A stretch of DNA of 64,000 nt from Gammaproteobacteria bacterium (GTDB taxonomy: Bacteria; Pseudomonadota; Gammaproteobacteria; Pseudomonadales; Pseudohongiellaceae), in assembly GCA_028818225.1 (NCBI GenBank), contig JAPPOG010000062.1, forward strand, positions 54,163 to 118,162. Direction: 5' to 3'. Below, piece after piece: positions 6,311 through 61,919 of the stretch. The position numbers and the translations under genes are program-made. Under the pieces are notes generated by a model. The model did not search any database, was not told the DNA's origin, and was given only the letters and a program-made list of their open reading frames with translations. Numbering within the stretch: position 1 is the first letter of the stretch; each line of letters begins with the position of its first letter.

Positions 6311-7999
6311 ATGGCTGGACTTCTCTCCAAAGAACGCATTATTGCGCCTGCTGATTACAACCGTTGGCGTGTTCCCGTGGCTTCCGTGGCGATCCATTTA
6401 TGTATTGGATCTGTCTACGCCTGGAGCATTTACAACCCTCCCCTCACTCGAGTTCATGGCGTAGTTACCAGCTCGGCCAATGACTGGAGTCTGAGCGCCG
6501 TGGTGTGGGTGTTTACCGTTGCCATTGTTTCGCTTGGATTAGCTGCGGCATTTGCGGGCAAATGGTTAGAAGAAGCCGGGCCTCGCAAGGTCGGCGTGGT
6601 TGCTGCCTGCTGCTGGGGCGGCGGCTACCTGGTGGGTGCAATAGGAATATTTACTCATCAATTGTGGTTACTGTATTTGGGGTATGGCGTGATTGGAGGA
6701 GTCGGCCTCGGCATGGGCTATGTGTCTCCAGTAAGCACTCTCATTCGTTGGTTCCCTGATCGGCGCGGTATGGCCACGGGCATGGCCATTATGGGATTTG
6801 GTGGTGGCGCCATGATCGGTACGCCCATGAAAGAATTCTTAATTCGTACTTTCTATCGTGCTCCCGAATATCTTGGAACCGTTGCTGATGTAGACCTGGT
6901 AACCGAGGCAGGACGCCGATTCGCGGAAATCGGCGGCAGCTTAAGAGAAGTGGTTGTAGTCGGTGCTGCGGAAGTCCGGGATATGACTGTACCCGGGCCG
7001 GAAGGCGTTTATGTTGTAGAGACAGGCGCTGCAGGGGTTGGCGAAGCTTTCGTGGTTATTGGACTGATTTATTTAGTAGTCATGTTGCTGGCAGCATTCT
7101 CTTATCGGATACCTGCAGAAGGCTGGAAACCTGCAGGATGGGTAGAACCAAGCGAAGAAGAAAGAGGCGCATTGATTTCAAGCCACAATGTCCATATCGA
7201 TGAGGCTCTCAAGACACGGCAGTTTTATCAGTTATGGATTGTGCTTTGTTTTAATGTGACGGCTGGTATCGGGGTGCTGGGGGTAGCCCGCACCATGATT
7301 ACAGAAATATTTGGATCATCGCTGCCCCAGGTGGTGGATACTGCTTTTGCTGCAACTTATGTAGTAATGATTAGTGCATTTAACATGGTCGGAAGATTTA
7401 TCTGGGCCAGCACGTCAGACTACATTGGGAGACGAACCACTTATTGGATATTTTTCGCTCTGGGCATTGTTCTCTATCTTTCAGTACCAATAACTGCGCA
7501 GCAAGTAAGTGTAAATCCATCGGTTGTCTGGTTAGTTTACTTCTACGCAGCAACGATGATTATTTTTACAATGTATGGAGGTGGGTTTGCCACTATCCCT
7601 GCCTACCTTGCCGATATTTTTGGCACTAAATATGTAGGCGGAATTCATGGACGCTTGTTGACGGCATGGAGTACTGCCGGTGTTCTAGGTCCACTGGCAA
7701 TTACTTCTTTGCGTCAAAACTCGGTTAACAATGCCATTGATGATCTCGTATCCGTGGTGGATCCATCGGCATTTCAGGCACAGTTCGGTGCCGGCATAGA
7801 TCAACTGGAAGCACTGGTCGCTTCAAACACCGTAACTATTTCCAGATTAATGGAGATTGCCCCTGCTGGAACAACAGACCCAACCAGCAGTCTATATAAC
7901 TCGACGATGGTATTAATGGCCGCACTGTTGGCTATTGCTTTGGTAAGCAATGCATTGATGCGACCAGTGGATCCGAAACACCACCTGATAGAAAATTAA
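6311..7999 (+). CDS. MFS transporter, OFA (oxalate/formate antiporter-like) family
   Basis: 562 residues with 12 predicted membrane segments. The first helix carries VPVASVAIHLCIGSVYAWSIYNPPLT, the signature of the OFA subfamily (G-x-x-Y-x-W-S-x-Y/F). The loop between helices 2 and 3 has an MFS-like GPRKVG motif, and helix 5 has GMATGMAIMGFGGGAMIG. A longer hydrophilic insertion (about residues 185-245) precedes helix 6. Substrates in the family include oxalate, formate and other small carboxylates; the substrate here cannot be told. It stands alone, divergent from cytochrome b561 and convergent with the SelW-like gene. Confidence 0.85.
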   Translation: MAGLLSKERIIAPADYNRWRVPVASVAIHLCIGSVYAWSIYNPPLTRVHGVVTSSANDWSLSAVVWVFTVAIVSLGLAAAFAGKWLEEAGPRKVGVVAACCWGGGYLVGAIGIFTHQLWLLYLGYGVIGGVGLGMGYVSPVSTLIRWFPDRRGMATGMAIMGFGGGAMIGTPMKEFLIRTFYRAPEYLGTVADVDLVTEAGRRFAEIGGSLREVVVVGAAEVRDMTVPGPEGVYVVETGAAGVGEAFVVIGLIYLVVMLLAAFSYRIPAEGWKPAGWVEPSEEERGALISSHNVHIDEALKTRQFYQLWIVLCFNVTAGIGVLGVARTMITEIFGSSLPQVVDTAFAATYVVMISAFNMVGRFIWASTSDYIGRRTTYWIFFALGIVLYLSVPITAQQVSVNPSVVWLVYFYAATMIIFTMYGGGFATIPAYLADIFGTKYVGGIHGRLLTAWSTAGVLGPLAITSLRQNSVNNAIDDLVSVVDPSAFQAQFGAGIDQLEALVASNTVTISRLMEIAPAGTTDPTSSLYNSTMVLMAALLAIALVSNALMRPVDPKHHLIEN

Positions 8000-8005
8000 G
8001 CTGGC

Positions 8006-8221
8006 TTAGGAAAGTAACTCGGCGATTTCTCCCTCGTTGGGGAATCTGCCGAGCTTATGCTTGGAAAATATGAGCGTACCGTCGCGCTTCACGTCGAAGA
8101 TACCCCCACCTCCAGCAATTAAAACAGCATCGACTCCAACCGCTTCTTTGATTTCAGCCGACACACGGTCAGCATCGGGTTGGTAGTTTCATGCCATGCA
8201 ATAGGTGATTTCAATTTCCAT
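8006..8221 (-). CDS. SelW-like selenoprotein (in-frame UGA read as Sec)
   Basis: 71 codons with one in-frame TGA (codon 11, plus-strand 8189-8191). The frame reads MEIEITYCMA-U-NYQPDADRV and continues with IFDVKRDGTLIFSKHKLGRFP before a TAA stop. This is the Rdx/SelW fold: beta-strand, CxxU redox motif (C8, U11), helix, two strands, then the conserved SxxKLGRFP turn and a final helix. Reading UGA as stop leaves a senseless 10-mer, while the homology continues on both sides. Upstream are GGGGGT at 8 bp and a well-spaced promoter; a SECIS-like hairpin follows the UGA. A sense-codon miscall is excluded only if the base is sequence-confirmed. Standard gene callers miss it. It is convergent with the MFS gene. 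Confidence 0.85.
8157..8173 (-). promoter_or_regulatory. SECIS-like hairpin downstream of the Sec UGA
   Basis: On the coding strand GCTGAC pairs with GTCGGC (6 bp, one G-U pair) around the loop CGTGT. The loop starts 21 nt after the UGA and has a G in its second position, matching the general rule for bacterial SECIS elements (a short stem-loop about 16-37 nt after UGA with a G among the first two loop bases). Confidence 0.6.
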
Positions 8222-8250
8222 AGGATTTACCCCCAAATCATTACTTATTT

Positions 8251-8379: not shown

Positions 8380-9960
8380 ATGATTCCTTCGAAAACAATG
8401 CACTGGCGGTGGCCAGCTATTTTTCTAAGCACCCTCTCTCTTTCCTGTGCAGCGCAAGAAACGCCGCAGCGATGGTATGAAGAAGGTCGAGCTACAGTTG
8501 AGCGCAACCTTTCCTATCGTTATGCCAATACCGAAGTTCCAATAGCAAAAAATGTAATTTTATTTATCGGTGACGGCATGGGCGTTTCCACGGTTACCGC
8601 AGCACGCATACTTGCTGGACAGCTGGAAGGAAATCCTGGAGAAGAAAACCAATTGTTCTTTGAAACGTTTCCCAATGTTGCACTTTCCAAAACCTATAAC
8701 ACTGATGCGCAAGTTGCAGACTCTGCCGGTACCATGACAGCAATGGCGACTGGTATTAAAACTGATCGCGGTATTATCAGCATTAACCAGAATGTCGAAA
8801 GAGGTGATTGCGATTCGGTAGCTGGCAATGAATTGCAAACTTTTCTGGAAATGGCTGAACAGAAAGGAATGTCTACTGGTGTTGTTAGTACTGCCCGCCT
8901 TACTCATGCTACACCGGCTGCAAATTATGCCCATACCATGGATCGTGATTTTGAAGATGACCGTGACGCTGAAAACATGCGCAATGCCGGAGATTGCCCG
9001 GATATTGCACGGCAGCTAATCGAGTTTATCGACAATGTACCCGGCAGTGATGGTATTGAAGTTGCAATGGGTGGAGGTCGCAGAAGCTTTATTCCTCGAA
9101 CGGATGGGGCAGATCCTGAAACCGGAGGACTGGGAGAGCGACTGGATGGCAGAAACCTTCCCCAGGAGTGGATTGAAGTTCACGATAATGCTGCGTATGT
9201 CTGGAACAAAGCACAGTTCGATGCAATCGACGCACGAAGCACAGATCATTTATTAGGACTGTTTAATCCATCCCATATGCAATACTCCTACGATACTCCC
9301 ACCGATAGTGGTGGCGAACCTACACTGACGGAAATGACTGCAAAAGCGATCGAAATTGTCAGTAAAAATGAACAGGGTTATTACCTGAACATCGAAGCAG
9401 GCAGAATTGATCACGCTCATCATGCGGTAAACCCCTTTCGCGCTTTACGGGATACCATTGAGTTCGCAAATGCTATTCAAACCGCCACCGAGATGGTTGA
9501 CCTGAATGAAACCCTGATTATTGTGACTGCCGATCATAGTCACGTATTTACAATCGCGGGTTATCCAAAACGGGGTAATCCGATATTAGGTAAAGTAGTA
9601 GGCCTGGACGCTGCTGGTCAACCAAGAACAGAGCCTAGTCTTGCGCGGGATGGCCTGCCCTACACTACCCTTGGCTATGCCAACGGTCATGGCTTTGCGG
9701 AACTTCCGAACCGAAACACCGCCGATGCTATCTACACAGTTCCTGTAGAGGAACAGCGTCGTTATGATTTGAGCGAGGTAAACACCGAGCATGAGGGGTT
9801 CCATTCTGAATCTCTGATTCCACTAGCGGATGAAACACACGCTGGTGAAGATGTGGCCATCTATGCTATTGGCCCGGGCTCAGATTTGATTCGCGGGGTT
9901 ATGGAACAAAACGTGATCTTTCACGTTATGATGGAAGCCGCGCAAATGGATTCGCGCTAA
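8380..9960 (+). CDS. secreted alkaline phosphatase (PhoA family)
   Basis: 526 residues with an N-terminal signal (residues 1-25). The metal site motif VILFIGDGMGVST and the nucleophile motif DSAGTMTAMATG (Ser at about residue 115) are both present, as are the later metal ligands in EAGRIDHAHH (about 340) and ADHSHVF (about 387), and the HxxE-type histidine near THAGEDVAIYA. It hydrolyses phosphate monoesters in the periplasm or outside the cell. The length is that of the longer PhoA-like type. No clear Pho box is seen upstream. Its stop overlaps the stop of the convergent astB gene by 4 bp. Confidence 0.93.
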   Translation: MIPSKTMHWRWPAIFLSTLSLSCAAQETPQRWYEEGRATVERNLSYRYANTEVPIAKNVILFIGDGMGVSTVTAARILAGQLEGNPGEENQLFFETFPNVALSKTYNTDAQVADSAGTMTAMATGIKTDRGIISINQNVERGDCDSVAGNELQTFLEMAEQKGMSTGVVSTARLTHATPAANYAHTMDRDFEDDRDAENMRNAGDCPDIARQLIEFIDNVPGSDGIEVAMGGGRRSFIPRTDGADPETGGLGERLDGRNLPQEWIEVHDNAAYVWNKAQFDAIDARSTDHLLGLFNPSHMQYSYDTPTDSGGEPTLTEMTAKAIEIVSKNEQGYYLNIEAGRIDHAHHAVNPFRALRDTIEFANAIQTATEMVDLNETLIIVTADHSHVFTIAGYPKRGNPILGKVVGLDAAGQPRTEPSLARDGLPYTTLGYANGHGFAELPNRNTADAIYTVPVEEQRRYDLSEVNTEHEGFHSESLIPLADETHAGEDVAIYAIGPGSDLIRGVMEQNVIFHVMMEAAQMDSR

Positions 9961-46735: not shown

Positions 46736-47626
46736 TTATTTAGAAAGTATAGCAATTCCCGGGAATCTACCGGTAGTCATGCCAACTCCCATGAGCACCA
46801 GCATACCGCCAAAGAACATGAATAATGTGATGCTCTCCGCAAGAAAGAGATTTCCCCATAAGATACTGAAAATTGGGATCAAATAGGTGGTCATGATGGC
46901 CTGTTGAGAGCCAATTCTGGCGATTAAGCGATAGAACAGTATGTAGCCGAAACCAGTACAAACTACTCCAAGGGCCAGCACGCTGAGCCACACGCTACCC
47001 TGCGGCATGACCTCGGGTTGCTGGCCTAGCGCAAATGGCAGCAGAACAATGGTTGAAAAAAATAGTCCGCCTGCAGTGATTGTGACTCCGGAAACACCTT
47101 GAAGTTTGTTGGATACTATATTTAACGCAATCCCATACAGAACGCAGGCAAACAGGGCTGAAGGAATTGCCAGCTGGCTGGTAACTCCAGACGCCTCAGA
47201 AGGGTCGAACACCAAAACGACTACACCTAGAAATCCAACCATCAATCCGGCCAGTCCAATTCTGTGCAACCGTTGTTGATAGACTACGAACGCAATAATT
47301 GCGGTAAAGAATGGAACTGTGGCATTCATAATAGACAAGACACCTGCTCCCATGTTCAACGAGGAATAGGCGAAAAAGCAGAACGGAACTGCCATATTAA
47401 AAAGGCTCACGATAAAGATCATCTTCCAATGTTGCTTCAACTCGGCAAATTTTCCCATAAGCAAACACATAGGCATTAAGACTATTAGTCCGCTCGCTAC
47501 GCGTAGCTCGATCAGAAATACGGGACCAAACTCAGGTGAAGCTATTCTCAGAAACAGAAAGGATGATCCCCAAATCGCTGAGAGAATCAGTAGTTCTATG
47601 TAATCTCTGAGAGTCGCCTGTTGCAT
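46736..47626 (-). CDS. DMT family (EamA) transporter
   Basis: 296 residues with ten membrane helices in two EamA repeats. LLILSAIWGSSFLFLRIA opens the first and the second has a matching FGYILFYRLIARIG segment. Probably an exporter of an amino acid or metabolite; the substrate is unknown. It is directly downstream (minus strand) of the alpha-operon terminator. Confidence 0.88.
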   Translation of the reverse strand: MQQATLRDYIELLILSAIWGSSFLFLRIASPEFGPVFLIELRVASGLIVLMPMCLLMGKFAELKQHWKMIFIVSLFNMAVPFCFFAYSSLNMGAGVLSIMNATVPFFTAIIAFVVYQQRLHRIGLAGLMVGFLGVVVLVFDPSEASGVTSQLAIPSALFACVLYGIALNIVSNKLQGVSGVTITAGGLFFSTIVLLPFALGQQPEVMPQGSVWLSVLALGVVCTGFGYILFYRLIARIGSQQAIMTTYLIPIFSILWGNLFLAESITLFMFFGGMLVLMGVGMTTGRFPGIAILSK

Positions 47627-47654
47627 TGAACTAATCGGGTATTTTTGAAATGCG

Positions 47655-47690
47655 AAAACAAAAAACCCGACCTACAGTGGTCGGGTTCTT
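47655..47690 (-). terminator. rho-independent terminator of the alpha operon
   Basis: AACCCGACC pairs with GGTCGGGTT around TACAGT; on the minus strand a TTTTTT run follows. It ends the ribosomal block. Confidence 0.85.
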
Positions 47691-47716
47691 CAAATCTAGT
47701 CGGAGTAAATAACTAA

Positions 47717-48130
47717 TTATTCCGCTTCTTCCGCCGCTTCCACGTTATCATCAATATCCTCTTCACTATGAATTGGACGATCAACTAACTCGACATAAGC
47801 CATTGGTGCTTTATCGCCGGCCCTTTCACCACATTTAAGAATGCGGATATATCCACCGGGACGATCTGCGTATCGAGGACCAAGTTCGGTGAAAAGTTTG
47901 CCTACAGTCGCCTTGTTGCGAGTGCGATCAAAAGCAAGGCGACGATTCGCCACGGAATCTTTCTTGGCAAGAGTGATTAGAGGTTCTGCAACCGAACGCA
48001 ATTCCTTCGCTTTCACCAAGGTAGTTTTGATTATTTCATGTTCCACCAGTGACGATGTCATGTTGCGAAACATTGCTGTGCGGTGCGGACTGTTCCGATT
48101 TAGTTGGCGACCGCTGTGTCGATGACGCAT
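47717..48130 (-). CDS. rplQ: 50S ribosomal protein L17
   Basis: 137 residues; [30 protein letters not shown] is the L17 N-terminus. Last gene of the alpha operon, 23 bp after rpoA. The C-terminal 25 residues are acidic and slightly longer than usual ([15 protein letters not shown]). Confidence 0.97.
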
Positions 48131-48153
48131 AGTCCTATATCCTTTGTCTCTTC

Positions 48154-49161
48154 CTAAGCTGCTCGATCGTCGGATTTAAGGCTTGATGGAGGCCAATTCT
48201 CAAGACGCAAGCCAAGAGACAGTCCACGTGTAGCCAGTACATCTTTGATCTCTGTCAGAGACTTCTTACCAAGGTTTGGAGTCTTAAGCAATTCAACTTC
48301 CGTGCGCTGAATTAAGTCTCCAATATAGTAAATGTCTTCTGCCTTCAAACAGTTTGCAGACCGAACTGTAAGTTCCAAATCATCAACTGGTCGTAACAGG
48401 ATAGGATCAATTTCATCTTCGAGTTCTTCAGGCTCCGCGATAATTTCGCTCTGAAGATCAACAAATACACTCAATTGATGCTGCAGAATTGTAGCCGCTC
48501 TACGTATGGCTTCTTCAGGTTCAATTGTTCCATTAGTTTCAAGATCAATAATGAGTTTATCAAGGTCAGTACGCTGCTCTACTCGCGCGTTCTCAACCGA
48601 GTAAGAAACTCTAATAACCGGGCTGTATGACGCATCCAATAGGAGCTTGCCTACGGAACGAGTTTCATCGTCTTCGGCAACACGACTATCCGCAGGGGAG
48701 TAACCTCGACCCTTGCGAACTGTTAAGCGCATATTTAACTCACCATTGCTATTTAGATTAGCGATGACATGATCAGGATTCACAATCTCCACATCATGAT
48801 CTTCTGCAATATCTCCTGCCGTGACAGTACCAGTACCTTTCTTGGAAAGTGTTAATACTGCTTCCTCATTGTTATTCAAGACTACTGCTACGCCTTTCAG
48901 GTTTAGCAATATCTCTATGACATCTTCCCGCACACCTTCAATTGTGCTGTATTCATGAACAACACCATCAATTTCAACTTCCTCTACCGCGCAACCTGGC
49001 ATTGATGAAAGCAGTATGCGACGCAGTGCATTTCCTAAAGTATGCCCAAAGCCACGCTCGAGCGGCTCCAAGACCACTTTGGAATGACACTTGTCGAATT
49101 CATCAACCTGTATCACTTGTGGTGTTAAGAAGTCTGATAAAGAAATTTGCATGTAATCCAC
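48154..49161 (-). CDS. rpoA: RNA polymerase subunit alpha
   Basis: 335 residues, normal length. The N-terminal domain ([30 protein letters not shown]) mediates dimerisation and assembly; the C-terminal domain (about 250-320; [36 protein letters not shown]) binds UP elements and activators. Confidence 0.98.
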
Positions 49162-49180
49162 CCTCTGTGTGATTAAGTCA

Positions 49181-49801
49181 CTACTTGGAATAAAGCTCGA
49201 CGATCAGATTTTCGTTAATTTCAGGAGGCAAATCCGCTCGATCTGGCTTGCGAGTGAACTGACCTTCCATCTTTGAAGAATCAACGGACACCCAATCTAC
49301 TTCAGAACGTTGAGCTGCCAGTTCCAATGCAGATTTAATTCTTAGCTGTTCCTTGGATTTTTGTCGTACGGCGACTACATCTCCTTCTGCTATCTGATAA
49401 GAAGGAATATTTACAACATCTCCGTTAACGCAAATGGATTTATGTGAAACAAGCTGGCGTGCTTCGGCACGGGTTGAACCAAAGCCCATTCGATAAACGA
49501 CGTTATCCAAACGACACTCTAACAGTTGCAACAGATTCTCACCGGTAGCACCTTTCAATCGCGCCGCTTCTTTGTAATAGCCACGGAACTGCTTCTCCAA
49601 TACGCCATATGTGCGACGTACTTTCTGTTTCTCACGAAGCTGAACACCGTAGTCCGAAAGACGGCCACGACGCTGACCGTGCTGGCCAGGAATTGTGTCG
49701 GTCTTGCACTTGCTGTCAATAGGACGAACACCGCTCTTTAAGAACAGATCCGTTCCTTCACGACGAGATAGCTTACACTTAGGGCCTAAATAACGGGCCA
49801 T
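49181..49801 (-). CDS. rpsD: 30S ribosomal protein S4
   Basis: 206 residues; [21 protein letters not shown] is the conserved N-terminus and the S4 RNA-binding domain spans about 95-160 ([25 protein letters not shown]). S4 binds 16S rRNA early in assembly and in relatives represses the alpha operon. Confidence 0.98.
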
Positions 49802-49816
49802 ACTTTCTCTCCTAGT

Positions 49817-50206
49817 TTACACACGTCGCTTTTTAGGCGGACGGCAACCATTGTGTGGAATTGGGGTAACGTCAGTGATATTGCCCACTTTCAATCCACA
49901 AGTGTTTAATGCGCGAACTGCTGACTCGCGACCCGGACCAGGTCCGTTTACTTTCACATCTAAATTTTTCAGGCCATAGTTTTCAATAGCCTGCTTACCT
50001 GCTTTTTCAGCTGCAACCTGGGCAGCGAAAGGAGTACTCTTTCTTGAACCACGGAAACCAGACCCACCGGCTGTGGCCCAGGCAAGCGCGTTACCCTGAC
50101 GATCAGTAATCGTGATGATGGTGTTATTGAAAGAAGCGTGTATGAACGCGATGCCATCTATAACGGTACTGCGAGCCTTCTTCTTTGCTGTCTTGGGAGT
50201 CGCCAT
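49817..50206 (-). CDS. rpsK: 30S ribosomal protein S11
   Basis: 129 residues, usual length. [45 protein letters not shown] is the conserved core. S11 binds the 690 loop at the platform. It is followed by S4 at 15 bp. Confidence 0.98.
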
Positions 50207-50209
50207 CTT

Positions 50210-50566
50210 TTACTTCCTGATTGGTTTGCGAGGACCCTTGCGAGTTCGCGCATTAGTTTTGGTTCTTTGTCCGCGCACGGGCAAAGAGCGTCGATGACGA
50301 ATTCCCCGGTTACAACCCAGATCCATCAATCGCTTAATGTTCATTGAGACTTCACGGCGCAGATCACCCTCAGTTGGGACTTTTGCCACTTCAGCGCGAA
50401 TACCATCGAGCTGTTCCGGACTCAAATCTGATACTTTAGTAGATGGCTCAATACCAGTTGCTTCGCAAATGCTCTTGGCAGTGGTTGGACCAATGCCATA
50501 CACATAACTCAATGAAATTACGATATGCTTGTTGTCTGGTATGTTAACCCCGGCAATACGTGCCAT
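50210..50566 (-). CDS. rpsM: 30S ribosomal protein S13
   Basis: 118 residues. [25 protein letters not shown] is the N-terminus and [28 protein letters not shown] the basic tail that contacts tRNA. It has a 3-bp gap to rpsK. Confidence 0.98.
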
Positions 50567-50590
50567 AGATTTACTCCGTTATCTCTCGCC

Positions 50591-50707
50591 CTAGCCCTGA
50601 CGCTGCTTGTGTCGGGGTTCAGCGCTACAAATTACTCGTACCGAACCGTTACGGCGAATAACCTTACAGTTTCGGCAAATCTTTTTTACTGATGCTCTTA
50701 CTTTCAT
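50591..50707 (-). CDS. rpmJ: 50S ribosomal protein L36
   Basis: 38 residues, [19 protein letters not shown], then a [12 protein letters not shown] end. It keeps the zinc ligands C11, C14, C27 and H33 (zinc-containing form). It is too short for common ORF thresholds and starts 24 bp after secY ends. Confidence 0.97.
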
Positions 50708-50730
50708 CTTCCTGCTCCTCTAGCTTATGG

Positions 50731-52056
50731 CTAGATTCCACTCCTGCCGTAATTACCTAATTTGGACTTCTTCATCAGTGAATCGTATTGATGTGACATC
50801 AAATGCGATTGCACTTGCGACCAGAAATCCATGGTTACCACCACAGAAATAAGTAATGCTGTTCCACCCAGGTTGAATGGCACGTTCGCCATCATCTGCA
50901 TGAAATTTGGTAACAAACAAACCAGGGTAATGTAGATCGCTCCAAACATGGTGAGGCGAGTAATAACGCCGTCGATGTACTTCGCAGTTTGCTCACCAGG
51001 TCTAATTCCTGGAATAAACGCGCCTGACCGTTTCAGGTTTTCTGCCACATCCCTCGGATTAAAGACAAGGGCAGTATAGAAGAAGCAGAAAAATATAATC
51101 ATGGCGCTAAAAATAATGATGTATAGCGGTTGCCCCGGACCTATAAGCAGGGCCAAATCCTGCAACCACTCAGCACCTTCCGATTGACCAAACCACTGAC
51201 CCAGAGACGCCGGAAACAATAAGATTGAGCTGGCAAAAATCGCTGGAATCACACCGGCCATGTTGATTTTTAATGGTAGATGGCTGGCCTGAGCCTGGTA
51301 CATCTTGCGGCCTTGCTGACGCTTGGCATAGTTAACAGTTATGCGACGCTGTGCCCGCTCTACATATACGATGCCAGCAACCACACCGACTGCTACTAGC
51401 GCAACTACTAACAGCAGCACCCCACTAATCTGGCCTTCATAGGCCTGGGTCAGAGACGTACCAACTGCTGCCGGGAATAACGCAACAATACCGGCGAAGA
51501 TGAGCATCGATATGCCGTTTCCGATACCTTTTTCCGTAATTTGTTCCCCTAACCACATAAGGAACATGGCACCTGTCACCAACGAGATAATAGCGGTCAG
51601 GTTAAAGGCCAGCCCCGGGTTATAAGCCATCGGTGACAGGAGACCAACAGTCATACCTGTTCCCTGCACCGTTGCCAGTACCAGCGCACCATAACGCGTG
51701 TACTGTGTAATCTTACGTCGACCAGATTCTCCTTCTTTCTTTAACTGATCTAATTGCGGACTCACTGCAGTCAGCAACTGCATGATGATTGAAGCTGAGA
51801 TGTAAGGCATTATGCCAAGGGCGACAATGCTCATGCGCTCCAGAGCGCCGCCAGAAAACATATTAAACAGACCAGCAAAGGTGCCTTCATTCTGGGCGAA
51901 GAAAGCCTGCAGTTGTAATGGGTCTATTCCAGGCACAGGGATGTGGGTGCCTACTCGATAAACGAAGATGGCAAACAACAGGAACAACAGGCGCGCCTTC
52001 AGCTCGCCGAGGCCGGCGCCTATATTCTCAGGATTGATGTTTGGTTTATTTGCCAT
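50731..52056 (-). CDS. secY: protein translocase subunit SecY
   Basis: 441 residues with ten membrane helices; [16 protein letters not shown] in the first loop and the conserved cytosolic loop [12 protein letters not shown] are typical. It forms the SecYEG channel with SecE and SecG. It sits in the spc operon between L15 and L36. Confidence 0.98.
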
Positions 52057-52101
52057 TTCTGTTTATTACTTCTTTATAAATCAATAGAAACGAGAATCCG
52101 G

Positions 52102-52710
52102 TTACTCTTCGTCTTTCTTTTCTTCTTTTTCCTCTTCACTCGAAACTTCTTCTGAAGATTCTGCTTTCGGCTCTTCTGCAGGAGCATCTTCTGTCTTGGC
52201 CTCAGCTTTTTCTTCTGTCTTTGGGGCCGCCTTCGCTTTCCTGGCTGGTTTCGCTGCCTCTTTTGCCACAGTTTCTACCACCTTGCCGCCGGCTTTTTCG
52301 ATGGCCTCACGAGCACCTTTTGATACAGCAACATTTCCACCTTCAACTGTAACTTTTTTAGTTACATCGCCAGAAAGCATAATCTTTACTCGCTTTTTGT
52401 TAGCTGAGATAACACCAGCTTTTTTAAGGCTTTCAACGGTTATTAAGTCGCCTTCAACCTTATTCAACTCTGAAGTACGAACTTCCGCAGTAATACGACC
52501 AACTCGCGAGCTAAAGCCATACTTAGGCAGACGCATTTGCAAAGGCATTTGACCGCCTTCAAAGCCTGGTTTAACAGTGCCACCACTGCGTGACTTCTGG
52601 CCTTTATGGCCAGTTCCACATGTCTTTCCCCATCCGCTACCGATACCACGACCAACGCGTTTCTTCGCTTTGGTGCTGCCTGCAGCCGGCCTTAAAGTAT
52701 TTAGTTGCAT
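52102..52710 (-). CDS. rplO: 50S ribosomal protein L15 with acidic C-terminal tail
   Basis: 202 residues against about 144 for the family. The conserved part ([39 protein letters not shown] onwards) ends near residue 142; about 60 residues of Ala/Lys/Glu follow ([21 protein letters not shown], then a Glu-rich end [18 protein letters not shown]). The tail is mixed charge, probably disordered. No internal stop or frameshift is seen. Confidence 0.96.
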
Positions 52711-52712
52711 GA

Positions 52713-52904
52713 TTAACTCTCACCTTCAACGGCTAACATATAATTAACCTTATTGATCATGCCGCGCACTGCTGGAGTATCTTCCACTTCAACAGATTGA
52801 TGCATACGCCGTAATCCAAGCCCCTGTAAACAAAGCTTGTGCCTGGGCAATGTACCAATCGGGCTCTTTACCAGAGTAACTTTGACAGTTTTCTTCTTTG
52901 CCAC
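52713..52904 (-). CDS. rpmD: 50S ribosomal protein L30
   Basis: 63 residues; [36 protein letters not shown] is the family sequence. It lies 2 bp before rplO, as usual in the spc operon. Confidence 0.97.
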
Positions 52905-52923
52905 CGTTTAATTCCTTATCTAC

Positions 52924-53433
52924 CTAGCCCACGATCTCTTCGACCGACTTTCCGCGCTTAACGGCAATATCTTCTGGCGAACGCATGTCTCTCAAACCTT
53001 TAAATGTTGCTTGTACAACATTCACCGGGTTAGTAGAGCCATAGCATTTTGCCAATACATTCTGCACACCAGCTAATTCCAGAATCGCACGCATGGCACC
53101 ACCGGCGATTACACCAGTACCTTCCGAGGCTGGCTGCATATACACTTTCGAGGCGCCATGACGAGATTTGATTGGGTATTGCAAAGTGTGCCCATCCAGG
53201 GAAACAGTGATCATATTGCGTCGTGCAGATTCCATAGCCTTTTGAATTGCCAATGGAACTTCACGAGCTTTACCGCGGCCAAATCCAACACGACCATTGC
53301 CATCACCTACTGCAGTTAATGCGGTAAAACCGAATATGCGACCACCCTTAACTACCTTGGCTACACGATTCACTTGAATAAGTTTTTCCTGTAAACCTTC
53401 TTCGTTTTTACCTGGCTCGTCTTTAAATGCCAT
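52924..53433 (-). CDS. rpsE: 30S ribosomal protein S5
   Basis: 169 residues. The double-stranded RNA-binding part [39 protein letters not shown] and the [25 protein letters not shown] segment are intact. It is involved in decoding accuracy. Confidence 0.98.
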
Positions 53434-53507
53434 ATTTTACAAACCTTTTATTTATTGGCTGGCGTCAATCAACGACCAGTCCAAAGTCAGAATCCTTATC
53501 GTTTCCC

Positions 53508-53858
53508 TTAGAATTTCAATCCGCCTTCACGTGCTGCATCCGCCAAGGCTTTGACACGACCATGATAGGCATAACCAGATCGATCAAAAGCCACCTCTTC
53601 GATTCCGGCTTTCTTTGCTCGTTCTGCTATTAATGTTCCAACCTTTCCTGCAGCTTCTATATTGCCTGTAACACCTTTCCTGTTCTTCTTTTCAACAGTC
53701 GAGGCGCTTACGACGATTTCATCGCCAGTTGGCGAAATTATTTGTGCATATATATGCTGCGGCGAACGATAAACACAAAGTCGATTCATTCGCAGTTCAC
53801 TTATCTTTGCTCTAGCCCTTCTTGCTCTGCGCAAACGAGCTGTTTTCTTAACACTCAT
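53508..53858 (-). CDS. rplR: 50S ribosomal protein L18
   Basis: 116 residues from the ATG at 53858 ([17 protein letters not shown]), the usual N-terminus; the frame's longer start at 53906 overlaps the end of L6 and is not likely. Binds 5S rRNA. Confidence 0.97.
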
Positions 53859-53868
53859 TATTAAAGCC

Positions 53869-54402
53869 CTATTTCTTCTTCGCTTCTTTTCTATACACGC
53901 GTTCATCTGCGTAGCGAATACCTTTCCCTTTATAAGGTTCAGGTGGACGAAACTTTCTTAACTCGGCAGCGACCTGACCAACCAGTTGCTTATCCGCACC
54001 AGAAATTACAATTTCAGTCTGAGAAGGTGTTTCAGCTGTTACTCCATCAGGTAGCTGGTAATTTATTGGATGTGAGTACCCAACTGTCAAATTCACTGTC
54101 TTACCTGAAGCCTTGGCACGATAGCCTACACCCTGAAGCTCCAATTTCTTTTGAAATCCTTCACTAACACCTACAACCATATTGTTAATCAGTGAACGAA
54201 ATGTACCAGCAAGAGCTCCTGCCTGACGCGAACCATCTTTAGCGGAGACTTTCAAATCTTCTCCGTCCTGAGCGACAGTAACCAGATCATGAAGCGATAG
54301 GTTGAGATTACCTTTCGACCCCTTAACTGAAATAGCGCTATCACTTAAAGAGGCTTCAACACCTTTAGGCAGGGTTACTGGTGTGTTTGCTATTCTAGAC
54401 AT
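53869..54402 (-). CDS. rplF: 50S ribosomal protein L6
   Basis: 177 residues; [21 protein letters not shown] and the C-terminal [24 protein letters not shown] are diagnostic. It binds near the GTPase centre. Confidence 0.98.
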
Positions 54403-54434
54403 CTTCTCGTTTCTCTTTACTTAATCAGCACTGA

Positions 54435-54830
54435 TTAAAAAACAGTGCAAAGTACCTCGCCACCAATACCAGCAGCCTCAGCCTGCCTATCTGTCATCAA
54501 TCCCTGGTTAGTTGACAGAATAGCGATACCCAAACCTGCTCGGTTCTTTGGCAAATTCTCTTTTCCTTTGTAATCGCGAAGACCCGGCCGGCTCACACGC
54601 TTGATCTCTTCAATCACCGGCGCTCCCTGAAAGTACTTAAGATCTATGCTGATTACAGCCTTGCCGTCTTCTTCACTGACGTCATAGCCATTAATATATC
54701 CTTCATCTTGCAGCACTTTACTTATCGCCACCTTAATTTTCGATGACGGACAGCTAACATTTGGCAGCTGCGCCATTTGTGCATTGCGAATGCGAGTAAA
54801 GAAATCTGCAATTGGATCTGACATGCTCAT
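54435..54830 (-). CDS. rpsH: 30S ribosomal protein S8
   Basis: 131 residues; [20 protein letters not shown] starts it and the end has [26 protein letters not shown], the S8 signature. In relatives S8 autoregulates the spc operon. Confidence 0.98.
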
Positions 54831-54843
54831 ATTTCTTCCCTCA

Positions 54844-55149
54844 CTACCAACTTGCCTTGGTCAGACCAGGCACATCACCACGCATGGCTGCTTCGCGTAA
54901 TTTATTTCGACAAAGGCCAAACTTTCGATAAACGCCATGAGGACGGCCGGTAATCTGGCAACGGCGTTGCTGGCGACTTGGGCTCGCATCACGTGGCAGT
55001 TTCTGTAACTTCACTTGTGCTTGCCACTTGTCGTCATCAGATGCTTTCGGATCCCGCAGAATAGCGCGTAATACGGCACGCTTTTCCGCATACTTAGCCA
55101 CCATTCTGGCACGCTTATTCTCTCTGGCTATCATCGATGCTTTAGCCAT
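54844..55149 (-). CDS. rpsN: 30S ribosomal protein S14
   Basis: 101 residues from the ATG at 55149 ([24 protein letters not shown]); the longer frame start at 55224 lies in rplE. It is the long, zinc-free form (single Cys in [10 protein letters not shown], no CxxC pair). It starts 1 bp after the rplE stop. Confidence 0.97.
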
Positions 55150-55150
55150 A

Positions 55151-55918
55151 TTAAGATTCCTCTTTATCTTCTTCTGAAGCATTACCACTGCTTTCTTCAG
55201 CAGACGCTTCTTCAGTTTGTTCAATTTCTTCTGCAGTTGCTTCTTCAGTTTGTTCAGTTTCTTCTGCAGGTGTTTGTTCAGTTTCTTCAGCAGGTACTTC
55301 TTCTACTGGTGCTTCCTCAACAACTTCTTCAGCAGGTGCATCTTCTTTAGCTTCTGCCTTTTCTTCGGTTGCCGATGCCATGCCGCGGAACGGAAAGCGC
55401 AAGGCAGTTAATAATGCGCGACCTTCATCATCATTCTGCGCCGTAGTAGTAATAGTGATATCTAATCCGCGCAGGGTATCGATCTTGTCGTAATCGATCT
55501 CAGGAAAAATGATTTGCTCGTTAACTCCCATTGCGAAATTACCGCGGCCGTCAAACGACTTGGGGCTTAAACCACGAAAGTCTCTAATTCTCGGAATAGC
55601 AATACTTACCAATCTTTCCAGGAATTCATACATGCGTTCACCACGAAGAGTGACTTTGCATCCAATAGGCCAGCCTTCGCGAATCTTGAATCCAGCGATA
55701 CTTTTACGCGCCTTGGTGACCACAACTTTCTGACCACTGATTTGCTCCAGATCACTGGTAGCATTTTCCAGGATCTTTTTGTCAGCAACGGCTTCTCCCA
55801 ATCCCATGTTTAAAACAACCTTGGTGACTTTGGGCACACGCATAGTATTTTCGAACCCAAATTGCTGGGCCAACGCCGGCACTACTTCATTTTGATAATA
55901 CTCTTTCAACTGAGCCAT
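55151..55918 (-). CDS. rplE: 50S ribosomal protein L5 with repetitive acidic tail
   Basis: 255 residues against about 179 for the family. Conserved L5 runs to about residue 180 ([24 protein letters not shown] to [11 protein letters not shown]). A 75-residue tail follows, built from imperfect repeats of TEQTxEE and AEE/VEE units ([20 protein letters not shown], then more repeats to EEDKEES). It is strongly acidic. The repeats are visible in DNA as CTTCTTCAGTTTGTTCA units (about 55190-55330), so slippage is a plausible origin. The neighbouring frame is intact, so this is not a frameshift. Confidence 0.96.
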
Positions 55919-55927
55919 GATCGTCTC

Positions 55928-56239
55928 TTAATCTATAAGCTGTCCGTTAGACTTAAAGATGCGCTGCTTATTGCCATCTTCGTCTACCTGAATACCAACG
56001 CGATCGGCTGCATTAGTCTCAGGATTAAAAATTGCCACATTCGAGATGTGAACTGCTGCTTCTCTTTCAATAATTCCACCGGGCTGTCCTGCATTAGGAT
56101 TGGGCTTGGTGTGGCGCTTAACCATGTTCACGCCGGCAACAAATACTCTGTCTCCGGTAATCTGAGAAATAGTTCCACGCTTACCTTTATCCTTACCGGT
56201 GATCACTATCACTTCATCATCACGCTTAAACTTATTCAT
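55928..56239 (-). CDS. rplX: 50S ribosomal protein L24
   Basis: 103 residues; [24 protein letters not shown] is the KOW motif. One of the two assembly initiators. Normal length. Confidence 0.98.
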
Positions 56240-56301
56240 CTTTCCGTCTCTAACTGTCTCTTTCTACTCAGCTTGGGCTTACTATTTCTCTTTCAGATTC
56301 T

Positions 56302-56670
56302 TTATAAAACTTCCGGCGCCAATGAAATAATTCTCATGAATTTTTCGTTTCGAAGTTCTCGAGTTACTGGCCCAAATACACGAGTCCCGATTGGAGCTTG
56401 TTGGGCATTCAATAAAATAGCTGCATTGTCATCGAACTTAATCAAGGAGCCATCACCGCGACGCACACCTTTCTTGGAGCGCACTACCAGAGCAGTCAGA
56501 ACTTGACCTTTCTTCACCTTACCGCGAGGAATTGCTTCCTTTACGGTAACCTTAATAATGTCACCAATGCGTGCGTATCGACGGTGAGAACCACCAAGTA
56601 CTTTGATACACATTACGCGTCTTGCGCCGCTGTTGTCGGCGACATCTAAGTAAGACTGCACTTGAATCAT
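56302..56670 (-). CDS. rplN: 50S ribosomal protein L14
   Basis: 122 residues; [41 protein letters not shown] is the L14 N-terminus. First gene of the spc part. Confidence 0.98.
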
Positions 56671-56733
56671 CGATTCACTCCATCCTGTATTTGCTTCACA
56701 AATACAAAACCACTTCTAAATTAAACCCGTTCT

Positions 56734-57036
56734 TTATACCTGAGCAGCTCGTTCATCTATCGAAACCAGAGACCAGCTCTTGGTTTTGGAGATTGGACGA
56801 ACTTCTTTAATTGTTACCGCGTCACCCAGACCGCACTCATTGTTTGCATCATGCGCATGAATCTTGGTTGAACGCTTAATTATCTTGCCGTAAACAGGGT
56901 GCTTAACGCGTCGCTCAACCAGTACAACAATTGATTTATCCATTTTGTTGCTGACTACTCGACCCGTCACAGTTCGGCTCATCTTTTCCTGGCCTTTTGC
57001 GCTTGCCTGGCTCTCTTGAATTTCAGTGTCGGACAT
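56734..57036 (-). CDS. rpsQ: 30S ribosomal protein S17 with N-terminal extension
   Basis: 100 residues; the conserved core [43 protein letters not shown] starts at about residue 20, after [18 protein letters not shown]. An ATG at that point (M19) could be the real start, giving the more usual 82 residues; the 57036 start leaves a 2-bp gap to L29. Confidence 0.93.
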
Positions 57037-57038
57037 AA

Positions 57039-57257
57039 TTAAGCTTCACTCTTCTCTTCTTGAGTTTCTGAATTTTCTTTTTCAGAAAGAATTGTTTTTA
57101 CTCGAGCAATGTCCTTTCGCACCTCTTTTACCAGGTGTATTTGCCCAAGTTGACCTGTACTGTTCTGCATACGGTAATTAAATTGATCCTTGTAGAGATC
57201 TTGCAGTTGCTGCTGCAATTCTTCTACAGATTTCTCTCTTAACTCTTCAGCTTTCAT
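57039..57257 (-). CDS. rpmC: 50S ribosomal protein L29
   Basis: 72 residues, slightly long; [36 protein letters not shown] is the family part, and the last 12 ([10 protein letters not shown]) form an acidic tail. It shares its ATG with the stop of L16 (1-bp overlap). Confidence 0.96.
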
Positions 57258-57670
57258 TACATTACCGTCCGCTTAACAAAAGTTGTTTCAAAGGGCAGCT
57301 TCGCTGAAGCCAGTGAAAAAGCTTCTCGAGCAAGCTCCTCATCTACACCTTCAATTTCAAACATGATACGGCCAGGTTGAATCTGGGCTACCCAGTATTC
57401 AACACTACCCTTACCTTTACCCTGTCGGACTTCTAAAGGCTTCTGAGTAATAGGCTTGTCAGGAAAAACCCGAATCCAGATTTTTCCACCACGCTTGATT
57501 CGACGAGTCATCGCTCGGCGAGCTGCTTCAATCTGACGAGCCGTTAGTCGTCCACGTGAGATAGCTTTTAATCCATACTCACCAAAATCCACTTTGCTAC
57601 CACGATGGGATAAGCCTCTGTTGCGGCCCTTCATCATTTTGCGAAATTTTGTACGCTTCGGTTGTAACAC
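57257..57670 (-). CDS. rplP: 50S ribosomal protein L16
   Basis: 137 residues; [39 protein letters not shown] and the [22 protein letters not shown] motif are diagnostic. Binds near the A-site. Confidence 0.98.
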
Positions 57671-57704
57671 GCCGTTATTCCTCTATTCTCTTTCGCCAAT
57701 AGGC

Positions 57705-58376
57705 TTAACTTGCTGCCGGTTGCTGCTTCGGAACGATAGCCTCGTCAAGATCCAGGATTTCGCCTTTAAAGATCCAGACTTTGACGCCAATGATTCCGTA
57801 AGTTGTACTTGCTTCAGAAGTAGCGTAGTCAATATCTGCCCGCAGTGTGTGCAAAGGTACTCGACCCTCGCGATACCATTCGGACCGTGCGATTTCAGCA
57901 CCACCTAAACGGCCACCTACTTGCACCTTGATTCCTTCAGCGCCCTGCCGCATAGCGTTCTGCACTGCCCGTTTCATCGCCCTGCGAAACATAACTCGAC
58001 GTTCGAGCTGTTGCGCAACACTGTCAGCAACTAACTGTGCATCCAGGTCAGGCTTACGAATTTCTTCGATGTTTATTTGTACGGGGATTCCCATTTTTTC
58101 AGTGAGAATTCCGCGCAGTTTTTCAACATCCTCACCTTTCTTGCCAATGACGATTCCAGGTCTTGCAGTGTAAATCGTTACTTTTGCAGTTTGAGCAGGT
58201 CTTTCTATATCAACGCGCGATACAGACGCACTTGCCAATCGCTTCTTGACGAAATCACGAACCTGCAGATCAACCAACAGATTGTCAGCGTATTCCTGTC
58301 CTTCGGCGAACCACACCGAAGTGTGCTTCTTCACAATTCCGAGACGAATACCAGTTGGATGTACTTTTTGACCCAT
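57705..58376 (-). CDS. rpsC: 30S ribosomal protein S3
   Basis: 223 residues; [33 protein letters not shown] and the KH-domain [15 protein letters not shown] loop are present. Final residues PKQQPAAS are unlike the E. coli tail but normal in length. Confidence 0.98.
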
Positions 58377-58385
58377 CCGAATCTC

Positions 58386-58718
58386 CTAGCTATCAGCGAC
58401 TGTAATTGTTATGTGACAACTGCGCTTGAGAATGCGATCAGCGCGACCTTTCGCTCTCGGCATAATGCGTTTCATTGTCATTCCTTCATCAACACAAATC
58501 GTTGATATCTTCAGTTCGTCCACGTCTGCCCCTTCGTTATGCTCGGCGTTGGCAATCGCGGAGTTTAAAACTTTCTTTATTATTGCAGCGCCTTTCTTCG
58601 AGCTGAATGTGAGAAGCTCCAACGCTTCTTCCACACCTTTGCCTCTAATCTGATCAGCAACTAATCGCGCTTTCTGAGCAGAAAGACGAGCGCCTTTTAA
58701 TCTTGCTTGAACTTCCAT
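58386..58718 (-). CDS. rplV: 50S ribosomal protein L22
   Basis: 110 residues; [25 protein letters not shown] is the N-terminus; [18 protein letters not shown] ends the protein. It lines the exit tunnel. Confidence 0.98.
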
Positions 58719-58727
58719 TACCTACTC

Positions 58728-59000
58728 CTAGCGCGCCTTTTTATCTGCGGCATGGCCGCGATAGGTGCGAGTTTGTGCAAACTCGCCCAGCTTGTGTCCC
58801 ACCATATCTTCAGTGATGAACACTGGCACATGTTGCCTGCCGTTATGAACCGCAATAGTCAGTCCAAGCATGTCAGGCGATATCATCGAACGACGCGACC
58901 AAGTTTTAATCGGACGCTTGTCTTTATTCTCCTGTGCGGTCTGTATCTTCTTCATCAAATGAAGATCAATGAATGGACCTTTTTTAAGTGAACGTGGCAC
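58728..59000 (-). CDS. rpsS: 30S ribosomal protein S19
   Basis: 90 residues; [40 protein letters not shown] is the conserved N-terminus. Located in the S10 operon between L2 and L22. Confidence 0.98.
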
Positions 59001-59025
59001 GAATAAAATCCTCTATCACTTGTCG

Positions 59026-59859
59026 CTATTTGCGACTCGCATTTCTACGGCGAACAATCATCTTGTCAGTTCGCTTGTTAGTTCTAGTTTTGTATCCCTT
59101 AGTAGGAACACCCCAAGGTGAAACTGGATGACGCCCACCTGATGTTCTGCCTTCACCACCACCATGAGGGTGATCGACTGGATTCATGGCAACACCGCGC
59201 ACTGTTGGGCGGACTCCGCGCCAGCGCTTGGCACCTGCTTTGCCCAAGGATCTCAATGAATGCTCAGAATTCGAAACTTCACCCAATGTCGCTCGGCAGT
59301 CGCTCAATACTTTGCGCATCTCACCGGAGCGCAGTCTTAGCGTTGCGTAATCACCCTCGCGGGCCACCAACTGCAAAGACGTTCCTGCGCTGCGAGCTAT
59401 CTGCGCACCTTTGCCGGGCTTCATTTCTACACAGTGCACCGTGCTACCCAGGGGAATGTTGCGCAACGGCAAGCAGTTGCCAACTTTAATTGGTGCCTGT
59501 TCACCAGACATCAAAACATCGCCTTTTCCAACCTTATTGGGGGCGATGATGTAGCGACGCTCACCGTCGGCATAAAGCAAAAGAGCAATGTTTGCCGAAC
59601 GATTTGGATCGTATTCCAATCGCTCTACCTTTGCTTCGATGCCGTCTTTATTGCGACGGAAATCGATAATGCGATACTTCTGCTTATGGCCTCCGCCCTG
59701 ATGACGCCGGGTAATACGACCCTTATTATTTCGTCCACCTGATTTAGATTTAGGTGCAGTTAAAGGTGCATAAGGCTCACCTTTATGCAGGTCAGGGTGC
59801 ACGACCTTGACGACAAAACGACGTCCTGGCGATGTAGGTTTACATTTAACTACTGGCAT
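59026..59859 (-). CDS. rplB: 50S ribosomal protein L2
   Basis: 277 residues; [55 protein letters not shown] and [26 protein letters not shown] are the conserved motifs, including the catalytic-region His in DHPHGGGEG. Confidence 0.98.
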
Positions 59860-59870
59860 GATTTAACCCT

Positions 59871-60173
59871 CTACCCTGCAATATCCGCAAAATCGATTTC
59901 GTGCCCTTCCTCTAAACGCACGTAAGCTTTTTTCCAGCTCGGGCGGCGTCTGACTTGTCCACGAAAGTTGCGTTTTGTTTTTCCCTTCACGTTTAGCACC
60001 TGAACATCAGAGACCACAACGTTGAAAAGTCCTTCAATCGCCGTCTTGATTTCTGGCTTGGTGGCATCTCGCGCTACCTTAAACGTGTATTGATTATTCA
60101 ACTCGCCTTGAAGTGTTGACTTCTCTGATACGTGAGGCGCCAAGACGATGGTGTACATGCGATCCGCATTCAT
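59871..60173 (-). CDS. rplW: 50S ribosomal protein L23
   Basis: 100 residues; [36 protein letters not shown] is the family core. The start overlaps the rplD stop by 4 bp. It contacts signal recognition particle and trigger factor at the exit. Confidence 0.98.
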
Positions 60174-60793
60174 GACAGCATCTCCTCTACTTTCTTAAGC
60201 GCTGGAACAGTGATCAACACCTTTTCAAAACCAATGAGACTGACTGGATCGAGTCCGGAGACATCCAGTGCATCAACTTTATGGAGGTTTCTTGCGGCGA
60301 GATAGAGATTTTTTTCTACTTGATCTGAAACGATTAGAACGTTTTCCAAATCGAACTGTTTGAGCTTGTTTACCAAGTCTTTTGTTTTATGTGTTTCGAC
60401 TGTGAATTCATTAACGACAATCAGTCGGTCTTGTCGGATCAGTTCGGAGAGAATGCATTGCATTGCTCCACGGTACATTTTTTTATTCAGCTTTTTGCTG
60501 TGATCCTGTGGGCGGGCTGCAAAGGTCACACCACCAGAACGCCAGATTGGGCTGCGAATAGTACCGGCACGAGCACGGCCTGTTCCCTTTTGGCGCCATG
60601 GTTTGCGTCCACCACCACGAACTTCCGAGCGAGCCTTCTGTTTGACGGAACCCTGGCGCGCACCAGCTAAATAAGTAACCACAGTTTGATGAACCAGGGG
60701 TTCGTTGTATTCACGACCGAAAGATTCATCAGAAAGAGAGATTTTTTCTTTACCGGCTTTCTTCTTTCCGGGCGAGGCTAGAGCTAATTCCAT
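60170..60793 (-). CDS. rplD: 50S ribosomal protein L4
   Basis: 207 residues; [68 protein letters not shown] is the tunnel-lining loop region. In E. coli L4 regulates the S10 operon through its leader. A 2-bp gap separates it from rplC. Confidence 0.97.
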
Positions 60794-60795
60794 GC

Positions 60796-61437
60796 TTAGT
60801 TACCTCTCACTTTGATTGCCGGTTTAACGATGACGCTTGATCCAGTTGCTCCTGGTACTGCGCCTTTGATGAGGAGGAGATTATTATCGATGTCTACTTT
60901 AACTATTTCGAGTGATTGAACTGTTTTGCGGACATTTCCCATTTGTCCTGCCATTTTCTTGCCTTTCCAAACTTTACCGGGGGTCTGACATTGACCGATG
61001 GATCCAGGAGCACGGTGAGAAATGGAGTTACCGTGAGTGGCGTCTTGCATGCGAAAGTTATGACGCTTTACACCACCCTGAAAGCCTTTACCTTTTGAGG
61101 TGCCAGTGACATCAACTTTCTGGCCAGCTTCGAATTGATCAACCTTGATCTCGCTTCCCAGTTCGATTTCTTCCAGATCAGTAGTACGAATTTCCCAAAG
61201 GCCATCGCCTGCTGCAGTATTCGCTTTGGCATAGTGGCCTGCAGCCGCCTTGCTCACACGGGATACCTTGCGCGCACCAGTCGTTACCTGGATTGCACTG
61301 TAGCCATCGGATTGAGGAGTTTTGATCTGAGTAACGCGGTTTGGCTGAACTTCGACAACTGTCACCGGGACAGAGTTGCCTTCTTCAGTGAAAACGCGGG
61401 TCATGCCGCTCTTTCGACCGACTAATCCTATAGACAT
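60796..61437 (-). CDS. rplC: 50S ribosomal protein L3
   Basis: 213 residues; [20 protein letters not shown] and the loop [33 protein letters not shown], with the methylated Gln site, are typical. It follows rpsJ after an unusual 170-bp gap. Confidence 0.98.
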
Positions 61438-61504
61438 TTTTTGTAAACCTCATCGTGCAAGGGGCTTAAACCCGCTATGGCCACTGACGTGTTGCACTCA
61501 TGCT

Positions 61505-61522
61505 TTTCCCGCATCGGGGAAA
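61505..61522. repeat. hairpin in the rpsJ-rplC gap
   Basis: TTTCCC-GCATCG-GGGAAA stem-loop inside the 170-bp gap between rpsJ and rplC. The gap holds no ORF; regulatory use is possible but not shown. Confidence 0.3.
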
Positions 61523-61607
61523 TTGGAATTTTCAGTTCTCCAAAACTTTGTTAATAAAAGGGCAATGAGGACTGAAATGCTCTATTGCCTGGCTATTTAT
61601 TCTTGCT

Positions 61608-61919
<312 letters not shown>

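Follow-up and report, generated by a model that had tools for sequence, protein, structure and literature searches.

A SelW-like gene with a predicted selenocysteine codon and a covarying SECIS-like hairpin in a bacterium of the Pseudohongiellaceae

The 64,000-nucleotide stretch of DNA analysed here, referred to as the window, contains a small SelW-like gene of the Rdx family in which the single in-frame UGA, at codon 11, is very likely decoded as selenocysteine (Sec); SelB and tRNA-Sec would carry this out with the help of a predicted SECIS hairpin. The insertion of Sec at this codon had been proposed in an earlier note on the same DNA, and the proposal gains support from the analysis described below: the UGA is likely to be read as Sec because dozens of relatives keep it, the downstream hairpin covaries and the genome contains selA, selB, selC and selD. 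Incorporation of the residue itself is inferred from sequence. The gene adds a new and well-supported member to a family that was known before and is abundant in marine samples, and will be no surprise to the specialist. In the available text of the respective studies, SelW-like proteins are the most abundant selenoproteins of the Sargasso Sea set, with 48 genes (PMC1088965), and top the GOS marine table, with 427 genes (PMC2398784). The family is listed under PF10262 with a CxxU motif in the accessible parts of PMC9312934 and PMC13188914, and the latter, a review from 2026, places it, in that part, under 'Predicted with high confidence' and not under 'Experimentally verified'.

The frame reported by the earlier note was recovered on the minus strand, where it runs from 8221 to 8006 through 71 codons, from an ATG start to a TAA stop, with codon 11 as its only TGA (Table 1). 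Its read-through product is MEIEITYCMAUNYQPDADRVSAEIKEAVGVDAVLIAGGGGIFDVKRDGTLIFSKHKLGRFPNEGEIAELLS. With the TGA read through, Pfam Rdx (PF10262) matches residues 2-70 at an E-value of 3e-15 (56.6 bits against a cut-off of 22.6), and the SelT/SelW/SelH family TIGR02174 is also matched above its threshold (43.4 bits against 34.2). Scores of this size are far from chance, and the homology extends to both sides of the TGA, in agreement with what had been claimed. The CxxU motif (C8-M-A-U11) comes after the predicted strand of residues 3-8; the UGA occupies its fourth position, and not the second position to which the earlier note had assigned it. The SK...RFP segment, which was adopted from that note as a mark of family membership, is found further on, as it had stated, in the form SKHKLGRFP; within this segment all 29 rows of the protein alignment (A3) agree on K54, F60 and P61, but not on R59.

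A structural model built from the 29-sequence alignment (pLDDT 93.8) is predicted to adopt the thioredoxin-like Rdx fold. PDB matches at E <= 0.001 comprise 22 chains with SelW-related proteins at the top, and include 2FA8, 2OBK, 2OKA, 2OJL, 2P0G, 3DEX and human MIEN1, several of the bacterial Rdx entries being titled SelW-related. The modelled protein resembles in fold the Cys-type Rdx protein Atu0228 of Agrobacterium (2FA8), with a TM-score of 0.89; Atu0228, however, displays the sequence YCTQC, and thus a CxxC motif, where the protein described here has CxxU. Mouse SelW (2NPB) appears to have the Rdx-type thioredoxin-like fold in common with the model, although the match is weaker (TM-score 0.63, E 3.7e-3), and it contains a CxxU motif. 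The eukaryotic SECIS is located in the 3' UTR, according to the available portion of PMC1088965. The best NCBIfam match by E-value (3.6e-24) is to NF041051, SelTWH_Campy, with 69 of 70 positions aligned; its score of 84.8 bits, obtained with Cys in place of Sec, lies below the curated cut-off of 88. With the bacterial SelW-like (SELENOW-like) selenoproteins the gene has in common PF10262, the CxxU motif, a UGA at the place of Sec and a predicted downstream SECIS. Nothing in the comparison breaks membership of that group, and a C facing a U at position 46 of the hairpin is a feature of this lineage.

Table 1. Location of the SelW-like gene, its predicted elements, its neighbours and the Sec machinery (coordinates without a contig name refer to the window).
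Feature	Position	Strand	Details
SelW-like (Rdx) gene, predicted selenoprotein	8006..8221	minus	Pfam Rdx 56.6 bits, TIGR02174 43.4 bits
TGA in frame at codon 11, predicted to specify Sec (CxxU, C8 to U11)	8189..8191	minus	TGA in 90/90 placeable subfamily loci, repeats included
Predicted bacterial SECIS hairpin	8157..8173	minus	stem 8173-8168 (GCUGAC), loop 8167-8163 (CGUGU), stem 8162-8157 (GUCGGC)
GGGGGT, Shine-Dalgarno-like stretch before ATG	8229..8234	minus	letters in sequence; exact letters not conserved
Divergent neighbour, alkaline-phosphatase-like	8380..9960	plus	family match under its cut-off
Convergent neighbour, MFS transporter	6311..7999	plus	NF049980, 322 bits against cut-off 320
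selC (tRNA-Sec)	C28:151464-151555		62.4 bits against gathering score 47; ARAGORN tRNA-SeC, anticodon tca
selB	C17:8988-10898		SelB 398 bits against cut-off 242
selA	C17:19440-20810		SelA 581 bits against cut-off 268
selD	C28:68968-69885		SelD 281 bits against cut-off 125

A selenoprotein requires a dedicated decoding apparatus, and the earlier note had held that selA, selB, selC and selD, none of which lies in the window, must be present elsewhere in the genome, naming the absence of selB or selC as grounds for abandoning the proposal. All four genes were located, on contigs C17 and C28 of the assembly (3,471,152 bases in 89 contigs, 97.47% complete, with the window on contig C40), selA and selB being about 8.5 kb apart on C17; the genome therefore displays the Sec-decoding trait as defined by these four genes. 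SelD constitutes the C-terminal part of a 788-residue frame (L021:1393-3759, minus strand, contig C28), where it lies behind a Pyr_redox_2 domain, and it carries the sequence MRCAGCGAK, which we take to be the Cys-type SelD motif. This arrangement is a known kind of fusion; the accessible text of PMC4561486 describes NADH-dehydrogenase-like fusions as by far the commonest fusions of SelD, and fused SelD as Cys-type except in one NifS case.

The SelW-like gene is probably not the sole selenoprotein gene of the genome. A CMD/AhpD-related gene with a CFYU motif and one in-frame TGA (L134:1165-2286, minus strand, contig C37) is predicted to encode another and, scored with Cys for Sec, attains 464 bits against a cut-off of 175 for NF041238 ('alkylhydroperoxidase-related (seleno)protein'). 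Folding did not settle a SECIS in this second gene, which provides independent support for an active Sec system. Formate dehydrogenase was considered as a further selenoprotein and ruled out: the single formate dehydrogenase alpha match over the cut-off (L122, contig C72) contains no in-frame TGA, and thus does not account for the Sec system. A search for GRDB/PrdB returned no match in the genome, and none in the control genomes either, so that the lack of a match is not evidence of absence.

Conservation of the UGA was evaluated in 97 genomes, 61 from the same genus (that of the window included) and 36 from other families of the order. The gene is present in 37 of the 61 genus genomes, in which a total of 38 genes each contain one TGA and none has Cys, the codon itself having been read in one gene of each genome. 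In one of these organisms (G057) two SelW copies with a TGA lie ~5.5 kb apart (C1:1212536 and 1218057), the second being taken from the search tables, while another member of the genus (G050) has a partial match that stops short of the site. Among the 36 genomes of other families eight have an Rdx protein, which in every case displays CxxC and belongs to a clearly different subfamily. Genomes of named species contributed 39 loci, of which 38 have TGA, none has Cys and the remaining one does not cover the site; five of these 38 have the same sequence around the site as a genus locus, and the two sets thus overlap. The titles of the named records refer to Gammaproteobacteria (including OM182 bacterium MED-G28), Planctomycetes, Verrucomicrobia, Deltaproteobacteria, Bdellovibrionales, Myxococcales, Obscuribacterales and a Neobacillus. 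At this site TGA is the codon in all 90 placeable subfamily loci, a number that includes repeats and corresponds to 69 distinct contexts. TGC or TGT at this position, which had been identified in advance as evidence against Sec, was seen neither in the 37 genus genomes nor in any of the 90 loci, and sequencing error is excluded for practical purposes because TGA is kept in all placeable loci. Between the window gene and six relatives pN/pS is 0.07-0.28 over codons 1-10, a rough estimate from 10 codons only, and 0.08-0.31 downstream of the TGA; alignment A3, with its 29 rows, shows no change at Y7, C8 or P15.

The distribution of selB within the genus says little about the SelW-like gene. Genes scoring over the SelB cut-off are present in 52 of the 61 genus genomes, including 21 of the 24 that have no SelW gene, and co-occurrence of the two genes in the genus is uninformative because selB is nearly universal there (Fisher p = 1.0). 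Over all 97 genomes the association has a p value of 1e-4 and is confounded by clade. In six of the 37 gene-carrying genus genomes no selB exceeds the cut-off. Completeness is 73-89% in five of them but 94% in the sixth, G033, which is a point against the proposal. Two of the six have matches under the cut-off, of 223.5 bits in G032 and over a 141-position piece at a contig start in G016, which are probably pieces of selB. The AhpD-related gene may explain why selB is retained in genomes without SelW.

The predicted SECIS hairpin, which is new here and had not been named by the earlier note, starts 15 nt past the UGA, and its loop begins 21 nt past it. Two nucleotide alignments were used. The first, A1, consists of 37 rows, 35 from the genus and two from close named relatives (L053 and L057), and is also the 'genus' set in the folding counts given below; the second, A2, consists of the 68 distinct rows that remained of the 90 TGA loci when exact duplicates and L120, which is cut by a contig end, were dropped. 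Aligned on the TGA, these 68 sequences are gap-free from -21 nt to +60 nt. The genus-set stem is usually GCN-GAC / GTC-NGC with CGTGT as the loop. In the 37 rows 92.8% of 222 cells are paired, and the covariation score is 0.361, whereas shuffled alignments average 0.118 and none of 500 attains the observed value; when the stem was slid by 1-3 columns pairing dropped to 13-46%. The 68 rows are 85.7% paired, with a covariation of 0.457 against 0.135 that again none of 500 shuffles attained. Pairs changed on both sides were not significant (72 of 500 shuffles for the 37 rows and 149 of 500 for the 68), nor were further pair types (39 and 223 of 500, respectively). RNAalifold, unaided, chose the four inner pairs, all of which have changed on both sides.

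As shuffling does not remove the relatedness of the sequences, tests that exploit the genetic code were added. In 32 rows of the genus set (L108, L109, L110, L117 and L118, which have another hairpin class and other residues, are omitted from the 37), the hairpin codons are locked, Arg being CGT in 31 of 31 cases, Val GTG in 31 of 32 and Asp GAC in 30 of 31. Elsewhere in these genes, in counts that include repeated loci, CGT represents 16% of Arg, GTG 34% of Val and GAC 53% of Asp codons. Synonymous recoding of the hairpin codons, performed 300 times, gave a mean pairing of 61%, and no recoded set came to the observed 93%. Codons Ala +6 and Ser +10 have third positions that are free of protein constraint, and these pair in 28 of the 29 rows (of 37) that have Ala and Ser (TCN) there; permutations gave a mean of 14.5, and none of 20000 attained 28. 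The G at the second place of the loop is the same in all 68 rows, and the letter after it is T in 62 and G in six. With 68 distinct sequences in a fixed register, the locus provides a large natural alignment of one SECIS in which constraint on the RNA can be separated from that on the protein.

The published model of the bacterial SECIS, in the part of PMC13188914 that was available, specifies a loop of 3-9 nt, a stem of 4-16 bp, a spacing of 16-37 nt between UGA and loop, a minimum free energy of <= -7.5 kcal/mol and a G within the first two loop positions, mostly then followed by G or U. The hairpin conforms to four of these five points, with a loop of 5 nt, a stem of 6 bp, the loop G and a spacing of 21 nt. 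Energy is the doubtful point: the 17-nt hairpin has -6.6 kcal/mol alone and -7.8 within 51 nt, against the limit of -7.5. The 17-nt hairpin alone is above that limit in 26 of the 37 genus-set rows and 14 of the 31 others, while some structure in the 51 nt attains -7.5 in 32 of 37 and 30 of 31, respectively. It speaks against the prediction that, within 51 nt of the window's sequence, the conserved hairpin (-7.8 kcal/mol) is slightly less stable than a shifted one (-8.5) and its pairs have a probability of 0.16-0.17. The z-scores of this single sequence range from -0.47 to -1.67, and folding it by itself was uninformative; the hairpin came from the alignment. It can also be argued that a bacterial SECIS is bound by SelB, which folding programs do not model.

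At hairpin position 46 a C faces U, and forms no pair, in 38 of the 68 rows; in the other 30 there is an A or G, which can close the loop. Two classes of SECIS loop are observed in the one genus (columns 46-50 of A2), C-GUG-U and A-GUC-U, the latter with a closing A-U pair, and this second class (L108, L109, L110, L117 and L118) accompanies a more divergent SelW. It is conceivable, if rather unlikely, that the genus holds two SelW SECIS classes proper, an open C-GUG-U and an A-U-closed GU loop, and that loop recognition by SelB has shifted within it. If this were true, natural variation alone could yield the SelB-SECIS code.

Public databases present such genes in other forms. Fifteen of the 30 protein matches were read: five span the site, all with Trp (P0002, P0003, P0004, P0005 and P0016), and ten, of 52-65 residues, begin past the UGA. 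The expectation that gene callers would split or drop the gene is borne out by P0011, a 53-residue 'hypothetical protein' from a Pseudomonadales MAG, which starts at the GTG of codon 20, inside the loop and stem of the predicted SECIS. It could be argued that the functional product consists only of the C-terminal 52 residues from this GTG, as gene callers have it; the codon is kept in 31 of 32 rows, and P0011 and other database proteins start at or near it. We consider this very improbable. Against it stand the low nonsynonymous change in codons 1-10 (10 codons only) and the invariance of Y7, C8 and P15. The GTG itself lies inside the hairpin: 62 of 68 rows have a pair between C45 and the final G of this codon, and the other six have T-A (five) or T-G (one). 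A product starting at codon 20 would, in addition, miss both the CxxU site and the first strand that the structural model shows.

The five Trp residues in the 15 records read might also be taken to mean that UGA is translated as tryptophan, or another standard residue, by a near-cognate tRNA, as might the finding that TGA ends just one of 29 long ORFs in the window (chosen by length among 117), with 17 ending in TAA and 11 in TAG. This seems less probable still. The same 29 ORFs use TGG 214 times, selA, selB, selC and selD are present, and the Trp records are most simply table-4 gene calls because P0005 equals L055 over residues 1-71 except for W at the TGA. A Trp at the site would abolish the redox pair and leave the covariation of the hairpin without a reason. 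The rarity of TGA stops may reflect avoidance of UGA as a stop. The TGA might, finally, be a nonsense mutation or sequencing error in a decaying Rdx gene, as a fresh pseudogene would show just such a lone stop within a short frame, and the contig belongs to a draft assembly with 89 contigs. This is of negligible probability when set against TGA in 37 of 37 gene-carrying genus genomes and in 38 of the 39 named relatives, which come from several phyla, and against the low nonsynonymous change downstream of the codon. The records illustrate two routes to wrong database entries, namely stubs that start inside the SECIS hairpin and Trp-containing proteins that most simply derive from table-4 calls.

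Decoding of the UGA as Sec would proceed as follows. SelD would make selenophosphate, SelA would charge tRNA-Sec and, with the ribosome at the UGA, SelB would bind to the G-U in the apical loop. The resulting Cys8/Sec11 pair would form a thioredoxin-like redox site, the physiological substrate of which is expected to be a thiol, of a small molecule or of a protein (glutathione or a mixed disulfide). Under a shortage of selenium or SelB, translation would end at codon 11, with a 10-residue peptide as the product.

The signals proposed upstream of the gene are less clear. The GGGGGT described as a ribosome binding site is present, but relatives have other, often A+G-rich, letters in its place. 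The suggested promoter with 17-bp spacing is weak: TTGCAA-17-TCTAAT, picked out by eye, fits nine of the 12 consensus letters, and a consensus promoter scan found 0 sites, against a mean of 1.1 in shuffles, so that a promoter is not claimed. Rfam at gathering scores gave no match within the window, and ARAGORN no tRNA. The open-licence literature, as far as its searchable text extends, yielded no paper on selenocysteine in OM182 nor, by title or abstract start among the papers listed, on this gene.

Gene neighbourhood was compared across 75 loci that have 1.5-3 kb of flanking sequence, contig ends cutting many of them short, and no operon partner pointing to the substrate was seen. A similar divergent alkaline-phosphatase-like gene lies upstream in 24 other loci of the 75, or 20 when loci with the same sequence at the TGA are counted once. 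Downstream, 17 loci besides the window's own (13 distinct) have a similar MFS transporter. In a different branch, two further conserved genes follow downstream in 14 loci (13 distinct). At a distance from the SelW-like gene, positions 46736-63592 of the window (minus strand) hold a run of mostly short ORFs whose sizes resemble those of a ribosomal protein operon.
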